Position numbers and translations under genes: made by a program
The notes under the pieces: generated by a model
What the model was told of the DNA's origin: nothing
The model's database searches: none
What the model saw: the letters and a program-made list of their open reading frames with translations, nothing else
Assembly: GCF_016899935.1 (NCBI RefSeq)
Contig: NZ_JACJJK010000001.1
Location: 248,001-312,000, forward strand
Length of the DNA: 64,000 nt
Source of the DNA: Olsenella uli
GTDB lineage: Bacteria; Actinomycetota; Coriobacteriia; Coriobacteriales; Atopobiaceae
Direction: 5' to 3'
Shown here: in pieces, positions 1,752 through 61,340 of the stretch
How positions within the stretch are numbered: position 1 is the first letter of the stretch
Layout of the letters: every line of letters begins with the position of its first letter

Positions 1752-2019
1752 GACGCGGGCGAGAAGAACGACGAACCACCCAAGACCACCCCGAACCAGG
1801 GCAGACCACCCCTTTTTGGCGCCAACGGCGAACGGCGGCGCATCCCCGGGCGAGCGGACGTCCACCGGCGCGGGGCAGCTCCCCGATACGGTGTCCGACG
1901 AGTGTCCCCATCTGGGCAAACGGCCCGTGCGTCAGTGAGCGGAAAGTCAGCCGTCAGCCAGCGAGCGACGTTTTTCCAAACGTGCCTCAGCGCCGACGGC
2001 AGTGCGCTAGGGTTTTCCC
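1752..2019 (+). promoter_or_regulatory. Gap with CGAGAAGAAC motif and a probable -10 box for the next gene
   Basis: No convincing gene is seen here. The interval opens with one copy of the genome-wide CGAGAAGAAC motif (1760-1769). It ends with TAGGGT at 2008-2013, a plausible -10 element placed so that transcription would start at or next to the ATG at 2020, which lacks a ribosome site. Leaderless translation is therefore likely. Confidence 0.4.
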
Positions 2020-3114
2020 ATGCCCATTCTGCTCTCACATACCACCGCACTCGAGGCGCTCAGGAGTGCCACCCTGAGGGGGCCGCTCGAGCGCGGCGAG
2101 CGCGTCAGCGTCCCGCTGCCCGAGACCTCGCCCGCCGAGGCCGAGGTCAGATCCGCCCTCGTGCGCCTTCCCCAGCTCACCTGCCCGCTCCACGTGGTGG
2201 CAGAGCGAAGGGGGCGGCGCGTCCCTCCCCGACTCGCGTGCGTGCACCGCTCGCAGGTCCCCCTTCCCCCCGACTCCGCAATCAGGCTCTCCGACGGTCT
2301 CTACTGCACGGCCCCCGAGCAGCTCGTCGTCCAGATGGCCCCCTCGCTCACCCATCTGGAGCTCGTCTTTCTTCTCGGCGAGCTTCTCGGCACCTACGCC
2401 ATCGCCCCCGACCGCGAGGACGGTATGTTCCAGCGCCGCAGGCCGCTCACGACCCGCGAGCGCGTCCTCGCCCACCTCGACGCGCTCGGCCCCGTCCCCG
2501 GGACGGCGCAGGTCCGCGCCGCGCTCAAGATGGCGTGCGAGCGCTCGGCCTCCCCCTACGAGACGCGCCTCTCGATGCGCCTGGGACTCAAACCGGCGCG
2601 CGGCGGCTACCACCTGCGCGTCCTCTCCATGAACGCGCCGCTCGAGGTCATGCGCATCGGTTTGGCGCTCGGGCCCGGCGTGCGCAAGCCCGACGTCCTG
2701 CTCGGGGCAACGAGCCCGGACGCGCCCTTCTCCGGGGTCTCCTTCGACTACAACGGGGGCGTCCACGCCACGCCCGCTGGCATCGAGCGCGACGCCCGCC
2801 GCCAGAACGAGATGCTGGCGGTCGACTTCAAGAACTACGTCCTCACCAAGGGGCTCTACGACGACCTGGACTACATGGACGACCTCGTCTCCCGGGTCAG
2901 GGCGGACCTCGGCATGTGCCCGCCGCACCTCACGCGCGACGAGGCGGCGCGGCGAAGGGCGTTGCGCGCGTGGCTGCACGACGAGCTCGAGCTCATCGAC
3001 GGCGTGCACTGGAACGGCCGGGCCCGCGAGCGCGCGCGGCGCGCGGCGGCCGAGGGGCGGCCCGAGGAACCCGTCATCGAGATGGTGCCAGTCGAGGCGT
3101 ACGGCGTCGACTGA
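2020..3114 (+). CDS. Hypothetical protein, possible PD-(D/E)XK / DUF559-like nuclease fold
   Basis: This 364-residue protein is not one I can name. Its second half shows a pattern seen in Vsr/DUF559-like proteins: SPYETRL near residue 185, KPDVLL near 227, FDYNGGVH near 243, then an Arg-rich RDARRQNEML segment. In that family these positions would give the acidic and His residues of a nuclease-like site. The N-terminal half is compatible with the helical or winged-helix part of AbiEi-like proteins. It stands alone between the two 31-bp arrays, an arrangement echoed by the AbiEi-like gene at 28874-29920. There is no ribosome site and the -10 box is very close, so translation is probably leaderless. 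The nuclease assignment is inference; catalysis is unproven. Confidence 0.6.
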   Translation: MPILLSHTTALEALRSATLRGPLERGERVSVPLPETSPAEAEVRSALVRLPQLTCPLHVVAERRGRRVPPRLACVHRSQVPLPPDSAIRLSDGLYCTAPEQLVVQMAPSLTHLELVFLLGELLGTYAIAPDREDGMFQRRRPLTTRERVLAHLDALGPVPGTAQVRAALKMACERSASPYETRLSMRLGLKPARGGYHLRVLSMNAPLEVMRIGLALGPGVRKPDVLLGATSPDAPFSGVSFDYNGGVHATPAGIERDARRQNEMLAVDFKNYVLTKGLYDDLDYMDDLVSRVRADLGMCPPHLTRDEAARRRALRAWLHDELELIDGVHWNGRARERARRAAAEGRPEEPVIEMVPVEAYGVD

Positions 3115-3121
3115 CGGCGGG

Positions 3122-6664: not shown

Positions 6665-7336
6665 TCAGCCGAGAAGAACGCGCCCCAGCTCCTCCACCGA
6701 GTCCACGCACGCGCACGCGCCGGCGCCCATGAGCTCGTCGACCGTGCCGGTCCCGCCGTAGGTGACGCCCACGCAGGGCACCCCGCAGGCCGCGGCGGCC
6801 TCGACGTCGTGGTGGCGGTCGCCGACCATGACGGCGTCGTCGGCCGTGGCGCCGAGCTCCTCGATGACGCGGGCGATGAGCGCGACCTTGTCGCCCTGCG
6901 CGTCGCTCGTCTTGCCGAGCGCGAGGTCGAAGAGGCCCGCGAGGTCGTTGTCCGCGAGCGCGCGGTCGATCAGGCGCTGCTGCTTGGACGACGCGACGGC
7001 GGTGAGGCGCCCGGCGGCGCGCAGGCGGGCAAGCATCTCCCGCACGCCGGGGAACAGCGGCCACGCCGACGGGCCGATCTCGCTGTAGAGCGCCCGGTAC
7101 TCGGCGGTGATCTGCGCCGCCTCCTCGGGCGAGAAGCCGTAGACCCACTCGTAGGCCTGGGGGAACGGCGGGCCCACGAGGCGCGTGAGGTCGCCCATGG
7201 CCTCGTCGTCGAGCCCGTGGTCCACGAGCACCGCGCGCGCCGTGCGCACGATGCCCGGCACGGTGTCTGCCAGCGTGCCGTCAAAGTCAAAGATCACGAG
7301 CCTCCTGCCCGCTGCGGTCGCGTCCGAGAGCGCCAT
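6665..7336 (-). CDS. HAD hydrolase, Gph/PpaX-like phosphatase
   Basis: This 223-residue haloacid dehalogenase-superfamily enzyme has motif I VIFDFDGTLADT, motif II with Ser in AVASSKQ, motif III Lys in DKVALIARV and motif IV VMVGDRHHDV. The helical cap follows motif I, as in phosphoglycolate phosphatase and PpaX. The start at 7336 is preferred because AGGAAAGGGG lies just upstream. The last codons carry a copy of the CGAGAAGAAC motif on the other strand (6670-6679), read in the gene as Val-Leu-Leu-Gly. The substrate is probably a small phosphorylated metabolite, but which one cannot be told. Confidence 0.85.
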   Translation of the reverse strand: MALSDATAAGRRLVIFDFDGTLADTVPGIVRTARAVLVDHGLDDEAMGDLTRLVGPPFPQAYEWVYGFSPEEAAQITAEYRALYSEIGPSAWPLFPGVREMLARLRAAGRLTAVASSKQQRLIDRALADNDLAGLFDLALGKTSDAQGDKVALIARVIEELGATADDAVMVGDRHHDVEAAAACGVPCVGVTYGGTGTVDELMGAGACACVDSVEELGRVLLG

Positions 7337-8777: not shown

Positions 8778-11012
8778 ATGAGCGAGGACGAGAGAAGCGA
8801 GCAGCACGGCAGGCTCGGGCGCCTCTTCGCGGCGCTCGTCGGCACCGACCCGGACGCCACAGACGCGGCGGGCGAGAAGGACCGCGCGCCCCTGGCCGGC
8901 ACCGCGACCGGCGCGGGCGCGGGCCCCTCCCACCTGGACCTCGACGCCCTCTCCGCGTCGCTCGCCGCCTCGACGGACCCCCTGCGCGCCCTGCGGCGCT
9001 TCACGGACGACGTGCGCGGGCGCGCCGCCGGCTCCGGGACGGGACCGGCCCCGAGCGCGCTCGAGACCTACCTCGCCGAGCGGCTCCAGGAGGCCGGGAT
9101 CGAGGACGACGAGCCCGGCGGCGCGCCGACGGTCAGGGTCGTCCGCCCGCACACCTCGGGCCTCTTCTACCTGCGCATCTCCGACGAGGAGCTCCCCTAT
9201 CCCGCCAAGCTGCGGGTGCTGAGGACGGAGGCCGCGCTCAACGGCGCGCTGCTCGCCTCCCTCGCCCTCGAGGACCCGGACGCCGCGAGCCTGGAGGACC
9301 TCGTGCGCTTCGAGGCGCGCTGCGCCCGCTCGATCGTCTCCCAGGCGCCCCTCCTCGCCCGCCGCCGTGAGGGCCCCGCCCGCGGCGAGTGGGAGGTGCG
9401 CCTCGCCCTCTCCGAGGCGATCGAGTCCGCGCGGCTCCCCCACCGCCTCACGGCGCGCTACCGCGTCAACGTGCGCGACCGGCGCGCCGCCTTCGAGGTC
9501 GACCTCGTGCCGCCCGCCGCCTGGCCCGCCACCAGCTACGTCGACGGCCTCGGCGTCGTGTCCGCCACCTCCGAGATGCGCCGCCGCGCGGCGAGCGACT
9601 ACGACCTGCGGCTGGGCGTCCTTCTCGCCTCCTACGCGCTGCTCGTGGCCCCCGAGCTCGAGGAGGTCTGGGTGGCCGGCGTGGAGGACGGGCCCCAGAG
9701 CCACGTCTGCCGCTACTCCGCGCGCCTCACGAGGGCGCTGCTGGAGGGCGTCGACCTGGAGGGGTCGCTCGACGTGTGGGCGCTCATGCGTGCCGCCGGA
9801 GCGCAGATGGACGAGAAGAACCTCGCGCTGGAACCCGTGCGCCCGGCCTTCTCGCTCGACGACGAGCGCCTCTGCCCCGCGCGGCGCTGGGAGCCCGTCG
9901 AGCTCTCGGGACGCGAGCTCGCCCCGGGACCTGCCCACGAGCTCGGGGCGCACGCGGTGCGCGACCTCGGCGTCGACGAGGCCGCCGCGCGCCGGCGGGC
10001 GGCCGACGAGCTGGTGCGCTCGCTCGGCGAGACGACCGAGCAGAACGTGCGCGCGCTGCTCGAGGCCGCCGAGGGGGCCCCGGACGATGTCCGCGACGCC
10101 GCGCTGCGCTGCGTGGGCGCCCTCATCGACGGGACGCTCGAGGACGACCCGCTGGCCATCGTGGAGGCCTTCGTCTCGGGCAGCCCGCTCGAGCGCGGGG
10201 TGGACCGTGCGCGCGAGGCCTTCTCCGCCCGCGACGGGGAGGAGGCCGAGGCCAGGGCGCGCGAGGCGCTCCGCGAGGCGGACAAGGCCGGGCGCTACGC
10301 GGACGGCGACGGGCTCGTCTGGCGCTCCTTCGCGACGTACGCCGACCGCGTGCTCTACGACCGCCTCGTGGCGCCACCGGGCGAGACCTGCCGGCTCGTG
10401 CCCGACGCCTACCTCGAGGGGCACCTGATCGTCTCGGCGTGCGCCCTCGCGCGCGGCGACGTCGGCGAGGCCCTCGCGCACGCGCGGCTCGCCCGGGAGC
10501 TGTCGCCGCTGTCCACGCAGACGAGCCTGCACCTCGCCCAGTGCCTCGAGGCGTCAGGCGACGCACGCGCGGCGGCCGACGAGCTGCGGCGCCTCCTCGC
10601 GCTCGCCCACGACCCCGAGACCGTCGGGATCGGCTACCTGCGCATGGCGCAGCTCCAGTGGCAGGAGGGCCACGTGCTCGCCGCCCAGGCGTGCTACCAG
10701 CTCGCGTGCAACCGGCTCGGGGCCCCCGTGCTCGTGGCGGGGCTCGCCGTCGTGGCGCTGATCGGGCACGTGAGCGGCGCCTCGGAGTCGTCGCTCACCG
10801 CCGAGCAGGTCGAGCGCGCCCTCGCGGCAGAAGACATCCCGCTCGCCCCGACCGAGGAGGTCACGACGGTCCTCATGGAGGCGAGCCGCGCGGCCGTGGA
10901 CGCCGAGCTCTTTGGCGTCGGGCGCGACGTGGTGCGCTCCCTGTGCTCGTCGCTGCGCGACGACGTGCTCTTCGGCGTGCTCCGCTCGCTCGAGGACGAG
11001 CCCGACCGGTGA
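8778..11012 (+). CDS. Large hypothetical protein with C-terminal TPR-like repeats
   Basis: I do not recognise a named family for this 744-residue soluble protein. The first 70 residues are charged and low in complexity. The middle is a mixed alpha/beta region with no obvious catalytic motif. From about residue 545 to 690, helical pairs such as LIVSACALARGDVGEALAHA and HLAQCLEASGDARAAADELR look like tetratricopeptide repeats, which usually bind other proteins. The start is set at 8778 because GAGAGGAGG lies just upstream; earlier in-frame codons have no site. Its stop overlaps the GTG of the next gene, suggesting translational coupling. No signal peptide or membrane helix is seen. Confidence 0.7.
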   Translation: MSEDERSEQHGRLGRLFAALVGTDPDATDAAGEKDRAPLAGTATGAGAGPSHLDLDALSASLAASTDPLRALRRFTDDVRGRAAGSGTGPAPSALETYLAERLQEAGIEDDEPGGAPTVRVVRPHTSGLFYLRISDEELPYPAKLRVLRTEAALNGALLASLALEDPDAASLEDLVRFEARCARSIVSQAPLLARRREGPARGEWEVRLALSEAIESARLPHRLTARYRVNVRDRRAAFEVDLVPPAAWPATSYVDGLGVVSATSEMRRRAASDYDLRLGVLLASYALLVAPELEEVWVAGVEDGPQSHVCRYSARLTRALLEGVDLEGSLDVWALMRAAGAQMDEKNLALEPVRPAFSLDDERLCPARRWEPVELSGRELAPGPAHELGAHAVRDLGVDEAAARRRAADELVRSLGETTEQNVRALLEAAEGAPDDVRDAALRCVGALIDGTLEDDPLAIVEAFVSGSPLERGVDRAREAFSARDGEEAEARAREALREADKAGRYADGDGLVWRSFATYADRVLYDRLVAPPGETCRLVPDAYLEGHLIVSACALARGDVGEALAHARLARELSPLSTQTSLHLAQCLEASGDARAAADELRRLLALAHDPETVGIGYLRMAQLQWQEGHVLAAQACYQLACNRLGAPVLVAGLAVVALIGHVSGASESSLTAEQVERALAAEDIPLAPTEEVTTVLMEASRAAVDAELFGVGRDVVRSLCSSLRDDVLFGVLRSLEDEPDR

Positions 11013-11680
11013 GCGCGGCGGCGCGGGCGAGCCTCTGGCCGCCGTCCTTCTCGGCCGCGATTTTTGACTTCGACGGCACTCTCGCGGAGTCCTCGCACGT
11101 CTGGCGACGCGTGGACGAGGTCTTCTTTGCCACGCGCGCGCTGCCCTTCGACGAGGACGCCGCCGCCACGATCTCAACGCTCGGCTTTGACGCCGGGGCG
11201 CGCTGGTGCGTCGAGCGCTACCGGCTGCGCGAGGAGCCCGAGGCCATCGCCGACGAGTGGCGCCGGCTGGGCTCGGCGCTCTACGAGACCGAGGTCGCCC
11301 TGCACCCCGGCGCGGAGGCCTACCTGCGGGCGCTGCGCGGGCGGGGCGTGCGCCTGGCGGTGGCGACCTCCAACGACCCGCACGTCCTGCGCTCGATGCG
11401 CCACGTGGACGTGGACGCCCTCTTTGACGCCGTAGTCTGCAGCTGCGACGTGGCGCGCGGCAAGGACCACCCGGACATCTACCTCGAGGCGGCGCGGCGG
11501 CTGGGGGCGGCGCCGGAGGGGTGCGCCGTCTTCGAGGACATCCTGCCGGGGGTGCGCGCGGCGGCGGGAGCCGGGATGGTCGCGGTCGCGGTGCGGACGT
11601 CGGACCCGCGCCAGCCCGTCGCGGAGCTGCGGCGGGCGGCGGAGTTGTGGGTCGACGGCTGGGAGGGGCTCGCGGGCTGA
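11009..11680 (+). CDS. HAD hydrolase, beta-phosphoglucomutase/phosphatase-like
   Basis: This 223-residue HAD-superfamily protein has motif I IFDFDGTLAES, motif II VATSNDPH, motif III Lys in GKDHPDIYLEAARR and motif IV VFEDILPGVRAA, with a helical cap between I and II. These features fit sugar-phosphate or mononucleotide phosphatases. It begins with GTG at 11009, overlapping the TGA of the upstream gene in a GTGA junction, so the two are translationally coupled. It differs from the HADs at 6665 and 23416, so the window holds three non-identical members. The substrate is unknown. Confidence 0.83.
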   Translation: MSAAARASLWPPSFSAAIFDFDGTLAESSHVWRRVDEVFFATRALPFDEDAAATISTLGFDAGARWCVERYRLREEPEAIADEWRRLGSALYETEVALHPGAEAYLRALRGRGVRLAVATSNDPHVLRSMRHVDVDALFDAVVCSCDVARGKDHPDIYLEAARRLGAAPEGCAVFEDILPGVRAAAGAGMVAVAVRTSDPRQPVAELRRAAELWVDGWEGLAG

Positions 11681-11716
11681 GGTCCTTCTCGCCCGCCGCG
11701 TGCGCCCTTTTGCCAG

Positions 11717-11831: not shown

Positions 11832-13225
11832 TTTCCGGCGCCACGTCGCGGCGGCTCGTCCCCCAGCAGCACACGGCGGCACTCGCGGACGCAGAGCGCG
11901 CAGAAGAGGCCGAGAAGGGCGAGCGTGCCCAGGAGCGAGAGTGCCGCGATGGCGAGAAACGCCTCGTCGGGCACGCCGCGTGCGAGCTGGCGCACCAGGG
12001 CGAGCCCCACGAGGCCATGCGCCGCCGCCATCGCTGCGGGCAGCGCGAACGACGCCAGGACCTGGTCGCGCACCGCGGCGCGGAGCGACCGGCGGTCGGC
12101 GCCAAGCTCGGCGAGGGTGGCGTAGGCGCGCCGGCCGTCTACGGCCTGGGCGAGCTGCTGGAGGGCGAGCACGGCGCCCGCCGCCACGAGGAAGGCCTCG
12201 CCGTAGAAGATGCCCACGTAGCCGATCGGCGCGAGGCTCGCCTCCGCAGGCGCGCCCGCATCCGGCACGCCCGCCGCGCGCTGCCCCACCGAGAACGCGA
12301 GCCCCGCGCAGATCATGCAGACCGCGCAGGCCATGAGCACGCAGGTGCACGAGAGCGCCTGGCAGGTAGAGGAGACGCGGGCCTCCAGCTGGCGCAGCGT
12401 GAACGCGCGGAGGCCGTCCCAGTAGCGCGCGCTGCGGCGCACGCGGGCGGGCAGCCAGGTGGCCGCCACGCGGAAGACGAGCGAGGTCGCCACGTAGGCG
12501 GCCCAGCCCATCGGCAGGATGGCCAGCACAAAGAGCCCGGGCATCACCGCGCAGCTGCCCCACACCACGGCGAGCAGGACCACGGCCAGCGCGAGCTGCG
12601 CGCGCGTGGCGGGGCGGCCGGCGAGGGCCAGGCGCTCCGGCGCGCGGTCGCGGCAGACGAGCTCCACGAGCGGGCGGCGCAGCACGTAGGCGACGGAGAG
12701 CGCCACGGCAAGCCCCTCGATCGCGGCGAACCAGCCGCAGGTATCGAGCGCCGCCGCCGGCGAGAAGGACCACGCGAGCCGCCACGGCACGCCAAAGACG
12801 AAGGCCGCCACTCCGCCGAACGCGGGCGAGGCCAGCGCGCCGAGGGCCACGCCGCAGGCGAGCGCCGCCACGCCGGCGAGCGCGCCCTCGGCCACGAGGA
12901 CCGCCGCGATGGCCGGCGCGCGCATCCCCAGGAGCGCGTAGAGGCCAAACTCCCGCGAGCGGCGCCGCACGATGAAGCGGCTCGCGTACGCCACGAGCAC
13001 GGCAAAGACCAGCACCACAAAGACCGAGAAGGCACCCGTGACGTCGCGCGCCTTGTGGATGACGGCCAGCTGGTCGGCGGTGAGGGGCATCGCCAGCAGG
13101 TAGTCTCCCGAGGCGTTGAACGCATAGAGCAGACAGGTGGCGAACGCGAGCGTGACCAGGTAGACCGCGTAGTCCCGGGCGCTGCGGAAGACGTTTCCGA
13201 TCGCGAGGCGGACGGTGAGCGGCAT
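11822..13225 (-). CDS. FtsX-like ABC permease without an adjacent ATPase
   Basis: This 467-residue polytopic membrane protein has about ten hydrophobic helices. Its opening (LAIGNVFRSARDYAVYLVTL) and the segment FIVRRRSREFGLYALLGM are typical of BceB/FtsX-type permeases of peptide-handling ABC exporters. Family members are commonly near 650 residues, with a large outside domain between helices; here that loop is short, so the protein is a compact or degenerate form. No ATPase gene adjoins it on either side. An AAGGGAG ribosome site supports the start. The 3' end runs into the repeat hairpin at 11783-11831, so the C-terminus may have been altered by the repeat. Confidence 0.72.
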   Translation of the reverse strand: MPLTVRLAIGNVFRSARDYAVYLVTLAFATCLLYAFNASGDYLLAMPLTADQLAVIHKARDVTGAFSVFVVLVFAVLVAYASRFIVRRRSREFGLYALLGMRAPAIAAVLVAEGALAGVAALACGVALGALASPAFGGVAAFVFGVPWRLAWSFSPAAALDTCGWFAAIEGLAVALSVAYVLRRPLVELVCRDRAPERLALAGRPATRAQLALAVVLLAVVWGSCAVMPGLFVLAILPMGWAAYVATSLVFRVAATWLPARVRRSARYWDGLRAFTLRQLEARVSSTCQALSCTCVLMACAVCMICAGLAFSVGQRAAGVPDAGAPAEASLAPIGYVGIFYGEAFLVAAGAVLALQQLAQAVDGRRAYATLAELGADRRSLRAAVRDQVLASFALPAAMAAAHGLVGLALVRQLARGVPDEAFLAIAALSLLGTLALLGLFCALCVRECRRVLLGDEPPRRGAGNSE

Positions 13226-13344
13226 GGGCGGGCTCCCTTCGTGCGTGGGCGGACGACGCCATGGTCCTTCTCGCCGGGCGGCCGCGCCATCGACCGGGCT
13301 TATCGCCAGCTAAGGCTTTCGCAAGGGAGCGCGGGCCGGCGCGC

Positions 13345-13357: not shown

Positions 13358-14035
13358 ATGGCGAGAAGAACCACAACCAGGACCCTCCTTGCGGGCGGCA
13401 CGCCCGACCTCCCCGTGAAGGTCGAGCGCAAGCGCGTGCGACGGCTCAACCTGCGCGTGCGCGCGGACGGCTCGGCGCACCTCTCCGTCCCGGAGCGCTG
13501 CACGCTCGCCGAGGCGCAGCGCTTCCTGGACGCGCACGAGGCGTGGCTCCGCGCCCACGTGCGGCGCCGAGAGGAACGCGCCGCAGCCCAGGAGCCCGAT
13601 GACGGCCTCGTCCCGCTCTGGGGCCGCCTGGCTCCGTTGCCCGAGGGCACCGCCCCGGACGAGCTCTGGCGCGCCGAGCTGGCCGCACGCCTGCCCGAGG
13701 TCGCCGCCCGCATGGAGGCGGCGCTCGGCGTGCGGGCCGCCGGCTGGCAGCTGCGCAACATGTCCACGCGCTGGGGCTCGTGCACGCCCCGGACCGCCCG
13801 CATCCGCATCAACGTGCGCCTCGCCGCCTACCCGCCCACCTGCCTGGACTACGTCGTGGCCCACGAGCTCGCGCACCTGCTGGAGCCCAGCCACAACGAG
13901 CGGTTCCACGTCCTTCTCGCCCGCGCGTACCCGGACGAGGCCGGCGCCCGGGCCCTGCTGCGCCACTCTGCGCGCGAGCTCGCCGCCTCCGAATCGACGC
14001 CAATTCGTAACACGCACGAAACAGTCACCGAGTAA
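13358..14035 (+). CDS. YgjP/DUF45-type zinc metallopeptidase
   Basis: This 225-residue protein carries the family signature: STRWGSCTPRTARIRINVRL near residue 135, then VVAHELAHLLEPSHNERF near 168, which gives the HExxH zinc site plus the third ligand His. The Lys/Arg-rich N-terminal part (KVERKRVRRLNLRVRADGS) matches the domain that precedes the protease core in YgjP-like proteins. The start is placed at 13358; an ATG three codons earlier is possible. The first codons contain a CGAGAAGAAC motif copy. The family is often linked to restriction or phage-related genes elsewhere, but no partner is seen here. Confidence 0.85.
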   Translation: MARRTTTRTLLAGGTPDLPVKVERKRVRRLNLRVRADGSAHLSVPERCTLAEAQRFLDAHEAWLRAHVRRREERAAAQEPDDGLVPLWGRLAPLPEGTAPDELWRAELAARLPEVAARMEAALGVRAAGWQLRNMSTRWGSCTPRTARIRINVRLAAYPPTCLDYVVAHELAHLLEPSHNERFHVLLARAYPDEAGARALLRHSARELAASESTPIRNTHETVTE

Positions 14036-15706: not shown

Positions 15707-15795
15707 GGCGGGCGGACGTTCTTCTCGCCCGGGCGCCGCCCCCGTGCCGAATCGGACGCACATTTCCCCTCTATCGGGCACAGGCGGAAACGACA

Positions 15796-18532: not shown

Positions 18533-18552
18533 ACGGGGCGGGCGAGAAGGAC

Positions 18553-28725: not shown

Positions 28726-28744
28726 CACGTTCTTCTCGCCCGCG

Positions 28745-42921: not shown

Positions 42922-43145
42922 CCCAGGAATCGTCGCCGTTGTCCCGACCCAGTCTAGAAACCGCCGCCATTGTCCCGCGCGCGTCCGGGAAACCGGGACC
43001 TTGTCGCAGCCACGTCCCGGAATCGCTTGCCTTGCACCACGTTTATCCGTGAATCCCCGACCTTGCGCAGCGCCGCCACGCCGCCCGCGCGCACGGTCCC
43101 CGATTCCAGGACGCACCCGGAACAAGCCCGTCCATTCCCGGATCC
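42922..43145. repeat. 31-bp periodic opposed repeat array C
   Basis: About five units of 31 bp (core CCGGGAATCGCCGMCCTTGTC) are followed, after a GC-rich centre near 43075-43095, by about two in the opposite direction (CCGATTCCAGGA, then CAAGCCCGTCCATTCCCGGA). This is the same design as at 1459-1751 and 3122-3695, and again the first tract has five units. It separates the divergent ECF and molybdenum-hydroxylase operons and extends over the open frame upstream of EcfA1. Confidence 0.82.
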
Positions 43146-43249
43146 GCCCGCCCCGCAGCGTTATAGCGCCGAATGTGCAACGCTGCGCGCTAAAGTGTCG
43201 CCCACCTGCGGTATCCTTGACGCATCACCGAGAAAACCAAGGAGGACAC

Positions 43250-44062: not shown

Positions 44063-44064
44063 GG

Positions 44065-46860: not shown

Positions 46861-46864
46861 CCGC

Positions 46865-46899
46865 GTTGCCTAAAAGGGGTCTGACCCCTTTTAGGCAAC
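46865..46899. repeat. Perfect 15-bp-stem hairpin, copy 3 of the GCCTAAAAGGGG family
   Basis: This copy matches that at 7385-7421, including loop TCTGA. It lies just after the molybdenum hydroxylase stop and could act as its terminator. A GTTCTTCTCG motif copy (46963-46972) follows. Confidence 0.9.
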
Positions 46900-46943
46900 T
46901 GTCATGACTTCGCAAGCTCGACCGGCCGAAGGGGCGCCCGCGC

Positions 46944-46949
46944 TACACT
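46944..46949 (+). promoter_or_regulatory. -10 box of the ABC exporter operon
   Basis: TACACT lies 32 bp before the ATG at 46981. A motif copy, GTTCTTCTCG, lies between it and the GGAGGTCGG ribosome site, inside the presumed untranslated leader. Confidence 0.5.
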
Positions 46950-46980
46950 TGTGCGGTTGGACGTTCTTCTCGGAGGTCGG

Positions 46981-48717
46981 ATGTTCAAGCTCAGGCGCTA
47001 CCTCGCGGGCCACTACGCCGAGTGCGTGCTGGCGCCGCTCTTCAAGATGCTGGAGGCCCTCCTCCAGCTCCTCGTCCCGCTCGTGATGGCCCAGGTCATC
47101 GACGTCGGCATCCCCGCGCGCGACGCCGGCTACGTGCTCGCCCACGGCGCGCTGCTCGTGGTCATGGGCGTCCTCGCGTGGGTCGTCGCCGTCGCGGCGC
47201 AGTTCTTCAGCGCGCGGCTCGCCGCCTCCTTCGGCACCGCGCTGCGCGACGACCTCTTCGCCCACGTGCTCTCCCTCTCGCGCGAGGACGTGGAGCGCCT
47301 CGGCCGCGCGAGCCTCGTCACGCGCCTCACCAACGACTCCCAGCAGGTCCAGGACGGCCTCAACATGTTTTTCCGCCTGATCCTGCGCTCGCCGTTCGTG
47401 ACCTTCGGCACCGTCGTGGCGGCCTTTCTCGTGGACGGCGTCGAGGGCGCGGCACTGCTCGTCGCCGTGCTCGTGGCCGGCGCGCTCGTCCTCGGCTTCA
47501 TGCGCCTGACCGCGAGCCGCTACCGCGCCATCCAGCGCGGCCTCGACGAGGTCCAGCTCCGCGTCTCCGAGAACCTCGAGGGCGTCCGCGTCCTGCGCGC
47601 CTTCCGCCGCGAGGCCGGCGAGCGCGCCGACTTCGCCGCGACCGCCTCCGCCGTCCGCGACCGCCAGGTCACGACCGGCGACCTCTCCGCCCTCGTGAAC
47701 CCGCTCACCTACGCGGTCGTCAACTGCGGCCTCATCGCGCTTCTGTGGTTCGGCGGGGCGCAGGTGAACGTCGGCAACCTCACGCAGGGCCAGCTCGTGG
47801 CCCTCGTGAGCTACGTGAGCCAGGCGCTCGTCGAGCTCCTCAAGCTCACGAACCTCATCGTCCTTCTCGCCAAGGCATCCGCCTGCGCCAAACGCATCAA
47901 CGAGGTCTTTGAGACCGCGCCCACCCTCGCGGACGGCACGCTCGACACCGCGCCGGACGCGGGCCCGGGCGCCCCCGCGCTCGCCTTCGACGACGTGAGC
48001 TTCTCCTACCCCGGCGCCGCCGGCGACGCCCTCTCCCACGTGAGCTTCTCGCTCGCCCCGGGCGCCACGCTCGGCGTGATCGGCGGCACGGGTTCCGGCA
48101 AGTCCACGCTCGCGAGCCTCGCTCTGCGCTTCTACGACGTCACGGGCGGCGAGGTCAAGGTCGGCGGCAGCGACGTGCGCGACCTCACGCGCCACGCGCT
48201 GCGCCGCCGGGTCTCGCTCGTGGAGCAGGGCGCCACGCTCTTCTCGGGCACCATCGCCTCCAACCTGCGCTGGGGAAGCGCCGAGGCGGACGAGCAGGAC
48301 CTCCGCTCGGCGCTCGCCACCGCGCAGGCCACAGGAGTCGTCGCCGGCAAGGCCGGCGACCTCGACGCGGAGGTCGAGCAGTTCGGGCGCAACTTCTCCG
48401 GCGGCCAGCGCCAGCGCCTCACGATCGCGCGCGCCCTCGTGCGCCGCCCGCGCGTCCTCATCCTCGACGACGCCTCCTCCGCGCTCGACTTTGCCACCGA
48501 CGCCGCCCTGCGCCGCGCGATCGCCCGCGACTGCGCGGGCACGGCCGTGGTCACCATCTCGCAGCGCGTGACCGCCGTGCGCCACGCCAACCAGATCCTC
48601 GTGCTCGACGGCGGGCGCCAGGTGGGCCTCGGCACCCACGAGGAGCTGCTCGCGAGCTGTCCCGTCTACCGCGAGATCTGCGAGTCCCAGCTCACCGAGG
48701 AGGAGGTGGCGCGATGA
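46981..48717 (+). CDS. ABC exporter, first permease-ATPase subunit
   Basis: This 578-residue half-transporter has six membrane helices (from about residue 15 to 290) and an ATPase domain with Walker A GGTGSGKST (about 368), signature FSGGQRQR (about 472) and Walker B VLILDDASSALD. The Asp in place of the catalytic Glu after Walker B (LDDAS) marks the degenerate site of heterodimeric exporters; its partner at 48714 has the normal Glu. The start at 46981 follows GGAGGTCGG. Its stop overlaps the ATG of the partner. The likely role is multidrug, lipid or peptide export. Confidence 0.92.
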   Translation: MFKLRRYLAGHYAECVLAPLFKMLEALLQLLVPLVMAQVIDVGIPARDAGYVLAHGALLVVMGVLAWVVAVAAQFFSARLAASFGTALRDDLFAHVLSLSREDVERLGRASLVTRLTNDSQQVQDGLNMFFRLILRSPFVTFGTVVAAFLVDGVEGAALLVAVLVAGALVLGFMRLTASRYRAIQRGLDEVQLRVSENLEGVRVLRAFRREAGERADFAATASAVRDRQVTTGDLSALVNPLTYAVVNCGLIALLWFGGAQVNVGNLTQGQLVALVSYVSQALVELLKLTNLIVLLAKASACAKRINEVFETAPTLADGTLDTAPDAGPGAPALAFDDVSFSYPGAAGDALSHVSFSLAPGATLGVIGGTGSGKSTLASLALRFYDVTGGEVKVGGSDVRDLTRHALRRRVSLVEQGATLFSGTIASNLRWGSAEADEQDLRSALATAQATGVVAGKAGDLDAEVEQFGRNFSGGQRQRLTIARALVRRPRVLILDDASSALDFATDAALRRAIARDCAGTAVVTISQRVTAVRHANQILVLDGGRQVGLGTHEELLASCPVYREICESQLTEEEVAR

Positions 48718-50486
48718 GCGAGAAGAACCTCGGGCCCAGGCCCCGGCCCACCACGTCCGACACCGTCCGTCGCGTGCTCGCGCTCTTCTCGGCGCGTCGC
48801 GCCTCGCTCGTCGCGGCCGGGGCGCTCTCCGTGGCCGTGGTCGTGGGGACGCTCGCGCTGCCCGTGCTCTCGGGCCGGGCGGTCGACTGCGTGGTCGGCG
48901 TCGGGCAGGTGGACTTTGCCGGCCTCTATCGCGCGCTCGCCTGGATCGCCGTCACGCTCGGCGCGACCGCGATCTGCCAGTGGTCGCTCACGGCCGTCAC
49001 CAACCGGCTCGCCTTCGGCGCGGCGCTCACGCTGCGCCGGCGCGCCTTCGACCACCTGCAGGAGCTCCCGCTCTCCTATATCGACTCCCACGGCCACGGC
49101 GACCTCGCCGCGCGCATCGTCACGGATGCGGACATGCTCACGAACGGCCTGCTCATGGCCTTCCAGCAGCTGCCCGTCGGCGTGCTCACGATCGTGGTGA
49201 CGCTCGTCTTCATGTTTGCGCTGAACCCGGCCATCGCGGCCGTGGTGGCGCTGCTCACGCCCATCTCGATCTTCACCGCGCGCTTCATCGCCACGCACAG
49301 CGCCAAGCACTTCTCGGGCCAGACCCGGCTGCGCGGCGAGCTCACGGCCTACGTCGAGGAGATGGTCGGCGGCATCTCGGCGATCGAGACCTTCGACATG
49401 GCCGACGCCGTCCACGAGCGCTTCGCCGAGACGGACGCGGCACTCGGCCAGGAGAGCTTCAAGGCGGTGTTCTTCTCGTCTTTGGTGAACCCCACCACGC
49501 GCTTTGCGAACGCCCTCGTGTACGCGGCGATCGGCATCTTTGGCGCCTTCGTGGCCATGGGCGGCGGCATCACCGTGGGCGGGCTCTCGGCCTTCCTCGG
49601 CTACGCGGACCAGTACGCCAAGCCCTTCAACGACATCTCCGGCGTGGCCACCGAGCTCCAGAACTCCGTCGCGTGCGCGCGGCGGCTCTTCGCCCTGCTG
49701 GACGTGCCCGCCGAGGAGCCGGACGCCCCGGGTGCCGCCGTGCTGGCCGAGCCGCGCGGCGAGGTGGAGCTCGACCACGTGGCCTTTGGCTACGATCCGC
49801 GCCGGCCCGTCCTGCGCGACGTGGACCTCTCCGTGCGCCCGGGCCAGCGCATCGCCCTCGTGGGCGAGACGGGCTGCGGCAAGACGACCCTCATCAACCT
49901 CATCATGCGCTTCTACGACGTGGACGCGGGCGCCGTGCGCGTGGACGGCCACGACGTGCGCGACCTCACGCGCGAGAGCCTGCGCGCCGGCTGGGGCATG
50001 GTGCTGCAGGACACGTGGGTGCGCCGCGCCACGGTGCGCGAGAACGTGAGCATGGGCCGGCCCGACGCCACGCTCGAGGAGGTACGCGCCGCCTGCCGCG
50101 AGGCCTACGCGGACGACTTCATCTGCCGCCTGCCGGCCGGCTACGACACGGTGCTCGACGGGAGCGCCTCGCTCTCTGCGGGGCAGCGGCAGCTCCTGTG
50201 CATCGCGCGCGTCATGCTGGCGCGGCCGGCGATGCTGATCCTCGACGAGGCGACGAGCAACATCGACACGCGCACCGAGCTTCTGGTCCAGCGGGCGCTC
50301 GCGCGCCTCATGGAGGGCCGCACGAGCTTCGTGGTGGCGCACCGGCTCTCCACCGTGCGCGACGCCGACCTCATCTGCGTGGTGGCCGACGGCGTGATCG
50401 CCGAGCGCGGCACCCACGACGAGCTGCTCGCCGCCGGCGGGCGCTACCGCCGCATCTACGAGGCCCAGTTCGCGCCGACGGAGTGA
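48714..50486 (+). CDS. ABC exporter, second permease-ATPase subunit
   Basis: This 590-residue partner has six helices (about 20-320), Walker A GETGCGKTT (about 385), signature LSAGQRQL, Walker B AMLILDEATSNID and switch VVAHRLSTV. The intact Glu makes this the catalytically competent site of the heterodimer. It overlaps the first subunit in an ATGA junction. Its first codons contain a CGAGAAGAAC motif copy. The truncated subunit at 1-1419 is similar, so the genome holds at least two such exporters. Confidence 0.93.
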   Translation: MSEKNLGPRPRPTTSDTVRRVLALFSARRASLVAAGALSVAVVVGTLALPVLSGRAVDCVVGVGQVDFAGLYRALAWIAVTLGATAICQWSLTAVTNRLAFGAALTLRRRAFDHLQELPLSYIDSHGHGDLAARIVTDADMLTNGLLMAFQQLPVGVLTIVVTLVFMFALNPAIAAVVALLTPISIFTARFIATHSAKHFSGQTRLRGELTAYVEEMVGGISAIETFDMADAVHERFAETDAALGQESFKAVFFSSLVNPTTRFANALVYAAIGIFGAFVAMGGGITVGGLSAFLGYADQYAKPFNDISGVATELQNSVACARRLFALLDVPAEEPDAPGAAVLAEPRGEVELDHVAFGYDPRRPVLRDVDLSVRPGQRIALVGETGCGKTTLINLIMRFYDVDAGAVRVDGHDVRDLTRESLRAGWGMVLQDTWVRRATVRENVSMGRPDATLEEVRAACREAYADDFICRLPAGYDTVLDGSASLSAGQRQLLCIARVMLARPAMLILDEATSNIDTRTELLVQRALARLMEGRTSFVVAHRLSTVRDADLICVVADGVIAERGTHDELLAAGGRYRRIYEAQFAPTE

Positions 50487-50592: not shown

Positions 50593-50654
50593 TTTCTCTG
50601 TCTCGCCGCGAGGCGGCAGCGACGCGTCCTTCTCGTGTATGGAACATCCGCGTT

Positions 50655-51374: not shown

Positions 51375-52050
51375 CGCGAGCGCGCGGGCCTATCCGCAGG
51401 CGTACCTCGAGGACGCGATGACGGCCCTCGCCGGGTTCTTCGACTACGCGGTGAACGACTACGGGGCTGAGGGTCCGCTCGTCGCCGGCCTGTTTGCCCA
51501 GAGCGCCGTGGGGCGCCTCTTCGAGCGCGGGGCTCCCTGGGTCGTGTCCGGCAGGTCGGGCGTCGAGCTCTTTCTTGACCTCAGCCGCGAGCTCGGGCAC
51601 ACGGACGTCTCGGCGTTTCCCGCCCCGCGCTGGCACTGCGAGAGGACGGCCCCCTACTGGGCGGGATGGGTCGCGGCCTACGCCCAGTGGCGCCTGAACC
51701 TCACGTTTCGCCAGCTCTTTGCTGCGCTGCCCTTCGACGAGCTGGCCGGGCTGTACGACCCCTGGCACGAGGCCTCGGAGGAGCGCTTCTCCGCCCTCGT
51801 GGCGGAGCGCGTCCGCGCTCGCATCCGCCCCACCAACCTCGCCCGCATCCGCCGCGCCGTCGGGTTCACGCAGGCCGAGCTCGCACGGGTCGCCGGAGTG
51901 GACGTGCGCTCAATCCAGATGTACGAGCAGCGCAACAAGAACGTCAATCACGCGCGGGCCACCACCCTCCTCGCCCTCGCGCGCGCCCTCCGCTGTCCCC
52001 TGGAGGACCTGCTGGAGCCCGAGCCGGCGGACGAGAAGGACGTCGCCTAA
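51346..52050 (+). CDS. HTH-containing partner of DUF3990 (probable antitoxin/repressor)
   Basis: This 234-residue protein has an N-terminal helical part (residues 15-60) that may be DUF3791-like, as in YLEDAMTALAGFFDYAVNDY. An unassigned middle follows, then a C-terminal XRE-type helix-turn-helix (about 170-225: GFTQAELARVAGVDVRSIQM). It starts inside the toxin gene with its own GGGAGGAG, so both are made together. The HTH suggests binding to the palindrome at 50655. The last codons contain a CGAGAAGGAC motif copy. The right-hand 73-bp palindrome follows 20 bp later. Confidence 0.7.
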   Translation: MSMMHACTNNASARAYPQAYLEDAMTALAGFFDYAVNDYGAEGPLVAGLFAQSAVGRLFERGAPWVVSGRSGVELFLDLSRELGHTDVSAFPAPRWHCERTAPYWAGWVAAYAQWRLNLTFRQLFAALPFDELAGLYDPWHEASEERFSALVAERVRARIRPTNLARIRRAVGFTQAELARVAGVDVRSIQMYEQRNKNVNHARATTLLALARALRCPLEDLLEPEPADEKDVA

Positions 52051-52173: not shown

Positions 52174-52377
52174 CTACAGGCCGCGCTCGCGAAGGCGGGC
52201 GTCGATCTCCTTGAGCGTGATGCGCGCGGCGAAGAGCTGGCGGTACGTGGCGGTCTTCACCTTGCCCGCCGCCGCGAGCTCGTCCATGCGCGCCTTCGTG
52301 GCCGCGAGCTCGTCGCGCACGTCGGTGGCGAAGCTGTCGTAGGCAGCCAGGCGCGCCGCGTCGTTCTTCTCGCCCAT
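52174..52377 (-). CDS. Small helical protein of unknown function
   Basis: This 67-residue, almost wholly helical and charged protein (LAAYDSFATDVRDELAATKA, then KVKTATYRQLFAARITLKEI) is probably a coiled coil. It starts with GEKNDAA, encoded by a motif copy (52363-52372). GAGAGGGG lies upstream, which supports translation. No family is recognised. Similar codons also occur at 52561-52586 without a following gene. Confidence 0.55.
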   Translation of the reverse strand: MGEKNDAARLAAYDSFATDVRDELAATKARMDELAAAGKVKTATYRQLFAARITLKEIDARLRERGL

Positions 52378-52558: not shown

Positions 52559-52585
52559 ATGGCGCCGCGTCGTTCTTCTCGGCCA

Positions 52586-52936: not shown

Positions 52937-53009
52937 GGCGGCTCCTCTCCTCTCGGTTGGCGTTTCCATGAGCATAGCCGAGAAGGACGAGGGGCCGCCA
53001 CCAAAACGA

Positions 53010-53851: not shown

Positions 53852-55147
53852 CTACGCGACGCCCGCGATCAGACGCGCGACGGCACCGCAGACCATGCCC
53901 CACAGGTCGAAGTCCTGGCCACCGTAGACGAGCATCCAGGACTGGATCGTGTTGTTGAAGAAGTACGCGCCGAAGCCGACGAGCAGGACGGCGAGGATAC
54001 CGCAGACGGCGGCGCCCACGATCGCGCCGCGAATGCCGCCCTCGGCGTTGCCCACGATCGTCGCGCAGCCGATCTCGAAGAAGCAGGTGGAGATCAGCGG
54101 GATGACGACGGTCGGGAAGATGCCCATGGAGCCGGTGATCAGGATCGTGGCGGTGGAGGTGATGAGGGCCACGATGAAGCCGATCAGCAGCGCGTTGGGG
54201 GCGTAGGGGAAGATGACCGGGCAGTCGAGGGCCGGGATGGCGTCGGGGACGACCTTCTCGGCGATGCCCTGGAAGGCAGGGACGATCTCGGCGATGAGCA
54301 TGCGGACGCCCTGGAGCATGATCGTCATGCCGACGCCGAAGTAGATGGCGTGCGTGAAGATGTAGGTGAAGATGCCCGTGGTGCCCTCGGCGTAGCCCCA
54401 GACGACGGCCGGGTCGTAGCCGTTGGCGGTGAGGATGAAGAACATCACGATATAGCTGATCGCGATCGCGATGGAGCCGGTGATGGAGATCTCACGCAGG
54501 AAGCCCAGGGACTTGGGGAACTTGATGTCCTCGGTGGAATGGCTGGGGTCGCCGACGAGGCGAGCGAGCAGGCCGGAGATCACCGAGAGGCAGGTGGTGG
54601 GGTGACCGATCGTGAACGAGTCGTCGCCGGTGACCTTCTTCACGAACGGCTTCATGAGGTTCGGGGAAATGATCATGTAGAGCGCCGTGAAGATCGCGGC
54701 GAGCGCGATCAGCGGGGCACCGGAGAGGCCCGCGCCCACGCCGGCGGCGACGAAGACGTACGGGAACCAGTAGAGCATGTGGCCCGTCAGGAAGATGGAC
54801 TTCCACTTGGTGAAGCGGGCAAAAATCACGTTGATCGCAAAGGCCACGATCATGACGATGCCGATCTCGGTGCCGAACTCGCCGCCGATGTCGACGGTGG
54901 TGGACTCGACGGCCTGCGGCATGACGGTGTTGAACGCCGTGGCGATGCCGTCGATGGAGCTGCCGGTGATGAGGCCGGTACCGGTGTTGAGCACGAAGAA
55001 GCCGATGGCGGTCATGAGCGTGCCGCGCACAATCTCCGAGAAGGACTTCTTCTGGAGGATCAGGCCGATCATGGCGATGAGCGCCAGGAAGATGGCACCC
55101 TGTCCGAAGATCTCGTTGATGATGAAGTTGAGCCAGGCTGGCATCAT
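53852..55147 (-). CDS. PTS EIIC component, ascorbate/galactitol (UlaA) type
   Basis: This 431-residue polytopic membrane protein has about eleven helices and the order of features of UlaA/SgaT-type EIIC permeases: MTAIGFFVLNTGTGLITGSS near residue 45, FTIGHPTTCLSVISGLLARL near 175 and FFEIGCATIVGNAEGG near 345. It carries the sugar across while EIIB phosphorylates it. The substrate is unsure: ascorbate, galactitol or a related acid or alcohol. It is followed by the SIS gene and preceded by EIIB. Confidence 0.88.
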   Translation of the reverse strand: MMPAWLNFIINEIFGQGAIFLALIAMIGLILQKKSFSEIVRGTLMTAIGFFVLNTGTGLITGSSIDGIATAFNTVMPQAVESTTVDIGGEFGTEIGIVMIVAFAINVIFARFTKWKSIFLTGHMLYWFPYVFVAAGVGAGLSGAPLIALAAIFTALYMIISPNLMKPFVKKVTGDDSFTIGHPTTCLSVISGLLARLVGDPSHSTEDIKFPKSLGFLREISITGSIAIAISYIVMFFILTANGYDPAVVWGYAEGTTGIFTYIFTHAIYFGVGMTIMLQGVRMLIAEIVPAFQGIAEKVVPDAIPALDCPVIFPYAPNALLIGFIVALITSTATILITGSMGIFPTVVIPLISTCFFEIGCATIVGNAEGGIRGAIVGAAVCGILAVLLVGFGAYFFNNTIQSWMLVYGGQDFDLWGMVCGAVARLIAGVA

Positions 55148-59110: not shown

Positions 59111-59154
59111 GGGCCCTCCCGCAAGTTTTCAGTAACCTGACCACAAGGACGCCC

Positions 59155-61281
59155 ATGCCCGCATCGCCTCTGGCCCTCGTTCCCCTGGCGGCCGTCGCCG
59201 CCGTCGTCGTGTCCGCCCTCCGCCTCGCCCGCGCCGGGAGCCGGCCGCGCCTGAGCGACCTCTGCTGGCTCGCCGTGCCCCTCGTCGCGCTCGCGGCCGC
59301 CTGCGCGTGGTGCACGCTCGGGCTCTACCGGGGCGGTGCCGCCGAGCTGGTCGCGCTGGACGGCGCGGCGCTCGTGGCGGCCGCCTCGGCGCTGGGCCGC
59401 CGCCGGGCGCTCGCGGCCGTCGACGCGTGGGCAGAGCGGCGCGGCGCGCGGGTCCGGCTCGTGCGCGCCCTTCTCGGCACGGGCGTCCTTCTCGCCTGCA
59501 CGGCGCTCGGCTTCCTGGCGCTCGAACTGCCCTACAACACCCTCCTGCCCGAGATGGTCCGTAGGTTTGCCCTGATCGAGTGCCTCCTCATCCTCGCGGC
59601 GCTGGCGTGCCTGCTCTTCCTCTTCCAGCGGCACGGCGCGGGCGTGGCGCTGGGGGTCGGCGCCTGCTTTTTCGTCGGCCTCGCGCAGTTCTTCGTCGCG
59701 ACCTTCAAGGGCGCCGCCATCCTGCCCAACGACCTCTTCGTTCTCGGGACTGCGGCGGCCGTGAGCGGCGGCTACGTCTACGCCGTGGACGGGGGCGTCA
59801 TCCTCGGCCTCGCCTGCCTGCTGCTCGCCGCAGCGGCCTCGGCGCTCGTAGTGCCGGCGGCGCCGGGGGCGACGACCCTCCGTGCCCGCGCCCGGCGCGT
59901 CGGCGCCAACCTCGCCGCCTCCGCCGCCCTTCTCGCCGCGCTCGTCACCGGCGTCACCGTGCCCAGCTACTTTGACGACCTGGGCCTGGGGATGTACTAC
60001 TGGTACTCGCTCGACTACTACCGCCGGCAGGGCTTCCTCACCACGTTCGTCGCCGTCGCGCAGGATCTTCCCGTGCCGATGCCCGAGGGCTACGCGGCCG
60101 AGGGCGCCGCCGAACTGGAGCGCTCCTACGCCGCGCGTTACGACGAGACCCGCGGCCTAGACGCAGGCCGCGCCGCAGCCGAGGCGCAGTTCGACGAGCT
60201 GCGGCCTACGGTCGTCTGCATCATGAACGAGACCTTCGCCGACCTCAGCCTCCTCGACGGCGCCTCCTGGGGCTACGAGGGGCCGACGCGCTACAACGCG
60301 GCCACGGACCGCCTCATGACCGGCGAGCTCCTCGTCTCCGTCCACGGCGCCGCGACCTGCAACACGGAGTTCGAGTTCCTGACCGGCGTCTCGCTCCCCT
60401 ACCTCGGCGACGGTAAGTACCCCTACTCGCTCTACGACCTCTCCGGGGCGCCCAGCCTGGTGCGCCAGTTCTCCGAGCTTGGCTACGCGACCACCGCAAT
60501 CCACCCCAACCTCACGAGCAACTGGAACCGCGGCCGCGTCTACGAGGCGCTCGGCTTCGACCGCTTCCTCACGATCGACGACTTCGAGGGCGCCGAGCGG
60601 TTTCACAGCGGCGTCTCGGACGAGGAGACCTACGACAGGGTCCTCGAGCTGCTGGAGCAGGACGACGGCCCCCAGCTCATCTTTGACGTCACCATGCAGA
60701 ACCACTCCGGCTACGACCAGAACAACATAGGGGAGGTCCCCCGGTACGCCGTCGAGGGGCTCGACGAGGCGCAGAACGCCCAGCTCAGCGAGTACCTCGC
60801 CTGCATCGAGGAGTCCGACCGCGCGCTCGCGGAGTTCCTCGCCGAGCTCGAGGGGCTCGACCGGCCCGTGATCGTCGTGTTCTTTGGCGACCATCAGCCC
60901 AAGCTCTCGCGGGACCTCTGCGACGCCCTCTACGGCACCAACGAGGACGCCCTCACGCGCAACCGGCGCCTCTACGAGACCACCTACTCCGTCTGGACCA
61001 ACTACGACGTGGCCGGAGTCGCAGGCGCGCAGGGCGACGGGCGTGCGCACGCAAGCATCTCCTACCTCTCTGCGGCGACGCTCGAGGCCATCGGCGCGCC
61101 GCTCACGGACTTCCAGAAGGCGCAGCTCGTGGCCAGCGAGGAGATTCCCCTGCTGAGCCTGGCGGGCGCCCAGCTGGACGACGGGGCCTGGGTCGCGATC
61201 GACGACGAGGACGCGCTGCCCTCAGCCTATGACGACATGGCGCAGATCACCTACCTCGAGTTCGCGAGCGAGCTGGGATAG
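59155..61281 (+). CDS. LtaS-like phosphoglycerol transferase/sulfatase-fold membrane protein 1
   Basis: This 708-residue protein has six to seven N-terminal helices (to about residue 290) and an extracellular sulfatase-fold domain. Metal and catalytic residues are visible: Glu in MNETFADLS (about 357), Thr401 in AATCNTEFEFLTG, the FDVTMQNHSGYDQ segment and the metal pair in FFGDHQPKLS (about 575). These match lipoteichoic acid synthase-like enzymes, which move phosphoglycerol onto a lipid or glycan. No glycosyltransferase is adjacent. The product polymer is unknown. Confidence 0.88.
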   Translation: MPASPLALVPLAAVAAVVVSALRLARAGSRPRLSDLCWLAVPLVALAAACAWCTLGLYRGGAAELVALDGAALVAAASALGRRRALAAVDAWAERRGARVRLVRALLGTGVLLACTALGFLALELPYNTLLPEMVRRFALIECLLILAALACLLFLFQRHGAGVALGVGACFFVGLAQFFVATFKGAAILPNDLFVLGTAAAVSGGYVYAVDGGVILGLACLLLAAAASALVVPAAPGATTLRARARRVGANLAASAALLAALVTGVTVPSYFDDLGLGMYYWYSLDYYRRQGFLTTFVAVAQDLPVPMPEGYAAEGAAELERSYAARYDETRGLDAGRAAAEAQFDELRPTVVCIMNETFADLSLLDGASWGYEGPTRYNAATDRLMTGELLVSVHGAATCNTEFEFLTGVSLPYLGDGKYPYSLYDLSGAPSLVRQFSELGYATTAIHPNLTSNWNRGRVYEALGFDRFLTIDDFEGAERFHSGVSDEETYDRVLELLEQDDGPQLIFDVTMQNHSGYDQNNIGEVPRYAVEGLDEAQNAQLSEYLACIEESDRALAEFLAELEGLDRPVIVVFFGDHQPKLSRDLCDALYGTNEDALTRNRRLYETTYSVWTNYDVAGVAGAQGDGRAHASISYLSAATLEAIGAPLTDFQKAQLVASEEIPLLSLAGAQLDDGAWVAIDDEDALPSAYDDMAQITYLEFASELG

Positions 61282-61340
61282 CACGGGCGAGAAGGACGGC
61301 GCGGTCCGGGCGCATCGGGGCGACGCGCGCGGGCGAGCCT

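Follow-up and report, generated by a model that had tools for sequence, protein, structure and literature searches.

The 10-bp word CGAGAAGRAC is dispersed in large numbers over both strands of a 64-kb window (the whole stretch of DNA analysed, G000:C49:248001-312000) and of the genome from which the window comes (G000, 2.125 Mb in 131 contigs). It is selected or driven at the level of DNA, is lineage-specific and has dialects in sister genera. In its extended form, GSCGAGAAGRACG, it is probably a DNA uptake sequence of the genus Thermophilibacter, with a competence machine built on a Tad pilus as its putative reader, a reading to which we give a probability of roughly 0.72. To our knowledge, uptake sequences are known only from Neisseriaceae and Pasteurellaceae. 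The wider claim, that Gram-positive bacteria have here their first uptake-sequence system, which arose independently of those two, is served by a Tad/Flp pseudopilus and not a type IVa pilus, and has partitioned Atopobiaceae by dialect in a way that limits recombination from genus to genus, we hold to be slightly better than an even bet.

Abundance, form and strand balance of the word

The window holds 46 exact copies (20 on the plus strand and 26 on the minus strand), against 0.27 expected from 100 dinucleotide shuffles, the richest of which contained 2, and the two forms of the word rank first and second by z-score among window 10-mers, reverse complements aside. An earlier note on this DNA had singled out the word as a candidate uptake sequence, reporting 44 copies (20 and 24), a random expectation of about 0.25 and a range ending at 61297; the abundance and the expectation hold good, while the exact count was too low and one more copy lies further on, at 62024-62033. 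Near-misses, also said there to be common, amount to 60 matches one base off the word, compared with 21 for the reversed word as control. According to a gene caller written for this analysis, 14 of the 46 copies are intergenic, much as the 13 or so reckoned before and in excess of the non-coding share of the window (9.5%), whereas 21 lie antisense and 11 sense within genes. Scans of the window with Rfam (gathering threshold) and for tRNA were empty. Genome-wide, a count that the same note had proposed as a check, there are 1,204 copies (583 plus, 621 minus), about one per 1.77 kb, far more than the 38 (18 plus, 20 minus) of the reversed word.

The relation of the word to coding sequence was analysed in pieces of contigs C49, C10 and C21 that total 450 kb and contain 252 copies, of which 157 lie in genes (0.39 per kb) and 95 outside them (1.93 per kb), a fivefold higher intergenic density. 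Shuffling of synonymous codons within genes (100 runs) yielded 59.4 genic copies (maximum 68) in place of the 157 observed, and shuffling of codon order (60 runs) yielded 15.4. The former reduced the copies in antisense coding frames from 76 to 4.5, and those in the sense frame that reads Glu-Lys-Asp or Glu-Lys-Asn (EKD/EKN), 77 of the 157, to 54.8. An origin in codon or peptide usage was rejected because both kinds of shuffling leave a large excess; the genic count lies well above the codon-model expectation that the earlier note had said would speak against a DNA-level signal, and its view that no single peptide accounts for the word is borne out by the enrichment of antisense frames and intergenic DNA beyond the EKD/EKN codons. 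Among 144,025 residues of G000 proteins, EKD occurs 56 times against 15.4 expected and EKN 33 times against 6.7, a 3.6- to 5-fold excess, and the reversed tripeptide DKE 6 times against 18.1. Smaller samples of the signal-free relatives G040, G052 and G018 did not show the EKD/EKN excess, so that protein sequence appears to be moulded by the word rather than the word by protein sequence. With two further 20-kb pieces added (490 kb, 11% non-coding), 100 of 274 copies are intergenic, where a second-order Markov model expects 0.57, a 175-fold enrichment.

Across these 490 kb, the intergenic consensus is G-S-CGAGAAGRAC-G. Strong conservation around the copies stops at positions -2 and +10, and beyond these there is a faint leaning to G at -6 and to C at -4 and +12. 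At the eighth base, A and G are equally frequent; other single-base variants are 0- to 18-fold enriched in intergenic DNA, with the exception of a change of the fourth base from G to C (15 copies, 41-fold). Repetitive extragenic palindromic (REP) and bacterial interspersed mosaic element (BIME) repeats have each copy embedded in a longer unit, homologous or palindromic; the flank profiles of the present word lack such a unit, and REP-like elements were rejected on this ground. Spacing is near Poisson and slightly even, with a mean of 2.80 and a variance of 2.43 copies in 97 windows of 5 kb, four of them empty against 5.9 expected. Thirteen pairs lie within 60 bp, nine in the same direction (seven of these at 12-19 bp) and four inverted. 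Of the 95 intergenic copies, 91 were assigned to a pair of neighbouring genes; density per kb is highest for convergent pairs (2.9), intermediate for co-directional ones (2.0) and lowest for divergent ones (1.1).

The even use of strands noted before extends to the whole genome (583/621, p=0.29). In C49 at 0-60 and 80-240 kb, where gene direction is mostly uniform, the word occurs 58 times on the plus and 56 times on the minus strand, and in sampled stretches of three relatives the leading and lagging counts of the dialect words are 33/33 (G023), 39/45 (G057) and 39/28 (G028), the origin being assumed near coordinate 1, which a clear GC-skew switch backs for G023 only and not for G057 or G028. 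A leading-strand bias, in which the earlier note would have seen a role like that of Chi or the FtsK-orienting polar sequences (KOPS), was absent from all of these stretches; a replication-polarised signal was rejected on the balanced counts, and Chi- or KOPS-like handling is thereby disfavoured.

Spacing and polarity bear on two other explanations. The word may be the binding site of an intracellular chromosome-organising or nucleoid protein that has diverged with its protein between genera, which we consider unlikely. Its random to slightly even spacing would suit such a site, and dialects would be expected to track a co-evolving protein; however, the word has no polarity relative to the inferred direction of replication, and nucleoid-protein sites need not rewrite proteins, in which EKD and EKN are in excess. 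We know of no nucleoid protein with an asymmetric site of 10-13 bp, more than 1,000 copies and genus dialects. Less likely again is a Chi-like recombination hot-spot for a host nuclease of the AddAB, AdnAB or RecBCD type. Chi sites and KOPS are short, asymmetric and frequent, Chi sites vary between species, and the known cases of both are strand-biased. The word resembles them in being short, asymmetric, dense, genome-wide and species-variable, but its leading and lagging counts are balanced and its intergenic density is five times the genic one.

Distribution in relatives and dialects of the word

On sequence, the genome of the window is a member of Thermophilibacter, family Atopobiaceae; G089, from the same genus, matches a locus of Thermophilibacter mediterraneus at 100% identity over 4.5 kb. 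The comparison with relatives that the earlier note had also proposed finds the word genus-wide and dialects of it in sister genera. Among 140 Atopobiaceae genomes, CGAGAAGRAC is enriched in all 31 of Thermophilibacter (genus g1), with 255-1,517 copies against 26-47 for controls, the lowest being G088 (255). Other genera of the family hold 650-867 (g27), 279-412 (g34) or 113 to 442 copies (g13, g15, g20 and g25), and the remaining genomes range from control level to about sevenfold (G045, 241 against 34; G057, 290 against 39; G138, 259 against 34). In a phylum sample of 296 genomes, none of the 270 outside the class approaches the density of G000, the densest (G475) having 157 copies in 3.4 Mb compared with 1,204 in 2.1 Mb, as read by eye. 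A TadA search of named genomes returned mainly distant relatives, with 0-3 copies of the full word per locus in the 22 of 80 loci counted and nothing useful on dialects.

The shorter word GSCGAGAA, counted in 396 genomes of the class, exceeds its control 5-15-fold in g1, 6-11-fold in g34, about 7-8-fold in g28, 6-8-fold in g51, 4-7-fold in g15, 5-fold in g16 and 5-8-fold in several others. Since a two- to fourfold excess is common across the class, part of it is coding background; that coding bias adds to such counts also follows from two genomes from outside the family, G159 and G165, which reach about sixfold yet have no intergenic excess.

Dialects built on the CGAGAA core are TGCCGAGAAACCC in g16, TTGGCGAGAAACCC in Lancefieldella parvula (which we take to be G023, formerly Atopobium parvulum) and CGGCGAGAAGNNC in g28. 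The search that recovered them compared all 8- to 12-mers of intergenic DNA with a second-order Markov model, and the core was not supplied to it. Its highest-ranking words include the two forms of CGAGAAGRAC in G000 (54 and 46 copies), CCGAGAAACCC (16 copies against 0.02 expected) together with TGCCGAGAAAC (13) in G028 of g16, TTGGCGAGAAA (7), TGGCGAGAAAC (6) and CGAGAAACCC (9) in G023 of g15, and CGGCGAGAAG (23 copies, 0.25 expected) in G057 of g28, in lists that also contain unrelated repeats such as a palindrome of G000. The bare core was compared with 19 permutations of the same letters that contain CG, and its intergenic counts (with permutation mean and maximum) are 207 (39, 88) in G000, 58 (18, 44) in G028, 56 (13, 25) in G023, 95 (18, 33) in G057, 57 (17, 33) in G116 and, in another family, 78 (18, 32) in G291 and G236 together. 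The word CGAGAAACCC reaches at least 130 copies in six of the 140 family genomes (G028, 215; G029, 225; G023, 130; G027, 195; G030, 150; G010, 131) and at most 51 in the remainder, some of which are still above control (37-45 against 3-8 in g2, and much of g1). Within the genus of G023, G024-G026 have only 14-18 copies of it and 276-294 of CGAGAAGRAC, which G023 and G027 retain at 171 and 211. Another member of the family, G022, has a strong excess of separate words built around CGTGGACAAACGGCT.

Two 20-kb stretches, G057:C1:1500001-1520000 and G023:C1:1400001-1420000, contain no copy of their genus word against about 7-10 expected at the mean density of their samples, have a GC content below that of their samples and carry the bare CGAGAA 31 and 21 times; picked after the counts were seen, they are perhaps acquired islands. 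Low-GC stretches of this kind, apart from the core that they keep, would fit a restriction-modification or other defence system that uses the word as a mark of self, since such a mark should be abundant in the host and rare in foreign DNA. Modification enzymes, however, do not create their own sites, and restriction sites are as a rule either neutral or avoided; we regard this explanation as very improbable. Least credible of all is a by-product of biases in codons, peptides or mutation, or of a dispersed REP-like family, for which speak the share of the EKD/EKN frame among coding copies and the GSCGAGAA excesses found across the class and in G159 and G165, but against which stand the strong enrichment of antisense frames and intergenic DNA, the background level of the reversed word, the confinement of strong conservation to -2 to +10 and the different dialects of sister genera.

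Competence genes and the case for an uptake sequence

The reading of the word as an uptake sequence draws on the competence genes of its host as well. G000 has comEA, encoding SLBB and helix-hairpin-helix domains, followed by comEC, and it has dprA. By PF00437, the assembly has a single type II/IV secretion ATPase; it is TadA, adjoined by CpaB, TadZ, TadB, TadC and a Flp-like pilin. The order of the locus in relatives is CpaB-TadZ-TadA-TadB-TadC-Flp-p147-Flp2-TadE-TadG-TadF-FHA, the genes from CpaB to TadF being present in 19 of 20 relatives' loci, with G002 atypical; Pfam matches none of TadF, TadG and p147, whose names follow from order and size. ComEC was found in 137 of the 140 family genomes, including all 101 of good quality, and PF00437 matches in 28 of the 28 genomes queried. 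In T. mediterraneus (L157:12905-14681), the flp pilin frame is truncated to 39 aa; after it come a serine recombinase with Resolvase, Recombinase and zinc-ribbon domains and genes that look phage-like by eye; the fetched stretch has no match to TadE, TadG or TadF, and its last 8 kb no motif copy. To judge from this arrangement, an element seems to have inserted into a competence-pilus gene.

In the mechanism that we propose, the word in free DNA would be bound by one of the surface components of the Tad/Flp competence pseudopilus or by a partner protein. The DNA of kin would then be preferentially imported via ComEA/ComEC, and DprA would assist its recombination. Over many rounds of import and recombination, the word would spread and be maintained chromosome-wide, most freely where coding constraint is absent, and dialects would keep the genera apart. 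Five of seven features of uptake sequences were found, namely over-representation, strand balance, enrichment at the DNA level past codon and peptide bias with a preference for intergenic DNA, competence machinery in the word-bearing genome (judged from genes alone) and, though not in every genus, dialects around a conserved core in relatives; the other two features of the set are preferential uptake of DNA that bears the word and a dedicated surface receptor. The DNA-level enrichment, the lack of polarity, the dialects and the competence genes thus support the proposal of the earlier note, and the word stays a candidate.

Several observations weigh on the other side. In the G000 assembly piece, the contig stops partway through the tad locus, so that the genes of its distal half are out of sight. 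Signal-free genomes such as G040, G052 and G018 likewise possess Tad loci and ComEC, so that the machinery alone does not predict the word, and its correlation with the word is uninformative given the counts above (ComEC, 137/140; PF00437, 28/28; tad locus, 19/20). No receptor candidate emerged by charge among the Tad proteins of 19 relatives, in which net charge after residue 45 is negative for TadG in 18, p147 in 16, TadF in 12 and TadE in 10, many ends of the open reading frames being uncertain and no search having been aimed at a homologue of ComP, the surface receptor of Neisseria. G116 (g34) has the core in abundance throughout its genome, but its intergenic list is not headed by any dialect. 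Intergenic CGAGAA is clearly above the highest control permutation in only 11 of 21 genomes, in a comparison that used less DNA; nine are within it (G020, G036, G040, G052, G018, G002, G022, G159 and G165) and G177 is barely over. In the stretch around a 7.7-kb query aligned with nine relatives at 84-90% identity, the motif is kept in 16 of 33 coding site-genome pairs (background 10-mer identity 0.26-0.48) and in 1 of 7 intergenic pairs, a sample too small to decide on conservation site by site; as far as this small alignment goes, individual sites come and go while density persists. Inverted pairs like the terminators of Neisseria are not characteristic here (4 of the 13 close pairs).

The DNA uptake sequences (DUS) of Neisseria occur on both strands, prefer intergenic DNA and frequently form inverted pairs that serve as terminators. 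The candidate resembles the DUS of Neisseriaceae (GCCGTCTGAA and its dialects) in being a 10-12-mer on a thousand-copy scale with dialects on an invariant core, CTG there and CGAGAA here, but its host is a Gram-positive actinomycetote, its pilus locus is Tad/Flp and not type IVa, and its close pairs are mostly in the same direction and not inverted. The uptake signal sequence (USS) of Pasteurellaceae, tied to competence and set in AT-rich flanks, is likewise a short genome-wide word, of unrelated sequence and lineage, whereas the flanks of the present word are GC-rich. Eight DUS dialects with a common CTG core and 943 to 5,918 copies per genome are described for Neisseriaceae (PMC3630211), and the USS receptor is said to have been long unknown (PMC12616744). 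The nearest parallel in machinery is Micrococcus luteus, also a high-GC Gram-positive bacterium, whose transformation requires tad genes and comEA/comEC and which differs in needing two tad loci (PMC4322843); the main text of that paper has no occurrence of 'uptake sequence', and M. luteus is described as lacking the comG cluster (PMC6370729).

No uptake sequence for Coriobacteriia, Olsenella or Atopobium was found in the literature searched, which mostly excluded subscription papers and preprints, and nothing on point about natural transformation or competence in Coriobacteriia turned up there by titles and the beginnings of abstracts. If experiments confirm the candidate, an uptake sequence would be new for Gram-positive bacteria. 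It would add a third and independent case, from a monoderm phylum and with a different pilus, that bears on why uptake systems evolve (selection for kin DNA or drive). Motif-tagged donor DNA could serve as a genetic tool for gut and oral bacteria with few tools, and g15, which includes L. parvula, would offer a natural experiment in dialect change within a genus.

Copies in the window and other repeats

The copies of CGAGAAGRAC in the window are listed below by position and strand, as placed by exact match and gene calls; those from 42482 to 49478 were also placed in the relatives' alignment.

1760-1769, plus, intergenic
6670-6679, plus, in called gene
8873-8882, plus, in called gene
9618-9627, minus, in called gene
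9812-9821, plus, in called gene
11044-11053, minus, in called gene
11682-11691, minus, intergenic
12761-12770, plus, in called gene
13264-13273, minus, intergenic
13362-13371, plus, intergenic
13910-13919, minus, in called gene
15718-15727, minus, intergenic, adjoining a 34-bp palindrome
18280-18289, plus, in called gene
18543-18552, plus, intergenic
18682-18691, minus, in called gene
21141-21150, minus, in called gene
21222-21231, minus, in called gene
22593-22602, minus, in called gene
23166-23175, minus, in called gene
23394-23403, plus, intergenic
23674-23683, plus, in called gene
27664-27673, minus, in called gene
28729-28738, minus, intergenic
29065-29074, plus, in called gene
30811-30820, minus, intergenic
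32062-32071, plus, in called gene
32749-32758, minus, in called gene
33193-33202, plus, in called gene
34168-34177, plus, in called gene
38860-38869, minus, in called gene
41805-41814, minus, in called gene
42482-42491, minus, in called gene
46266-46275, plus, in called gene
46963-46972, minus, intergenic
47860-47869, minus, in called gene
48719-48728, plus, in called gene
49469-49478, minus, in called gene; retained in 4 of 9 relatives, those that align here
50626-50635, minus, intergenic
52032-52041, plus, in called gene
52363-52372, minus, in called gene
52572-52581, minus, intergenic
52979-52988, plus, intergenic
55037-55046, plus, in called gene
59485-59494, minus, in called gene
61288-61297, plus, intergenic
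62024-62033, minus, in called gene; past the range of the earlier note

The 34-bp near-perfect palindrome, TTGCCTAAAAGGGGTC[TA]GACCCCTTTTAGGCAA, heads the non-coding word list of G000 and occurs at 18 places in the 490 kb, with 32 half-site matches; in the window it lies near 7390, 15676 and 46869 (C49:255389, 263675 and 294868). It is perhaps a dispersed hairpin element. The DNA of G236 and G291 that was called non-coding has about 44-48 occurrences of a repeat that includes GTCAGCGGGGATGATCC and resembles those of CRISPR arrays (clustered regularly interspaced short palindromic repeats). Contig C102 of G000 begins, at position 1, with a frame reading DVYKRQ, apparently leftover sequencing-library adapter.

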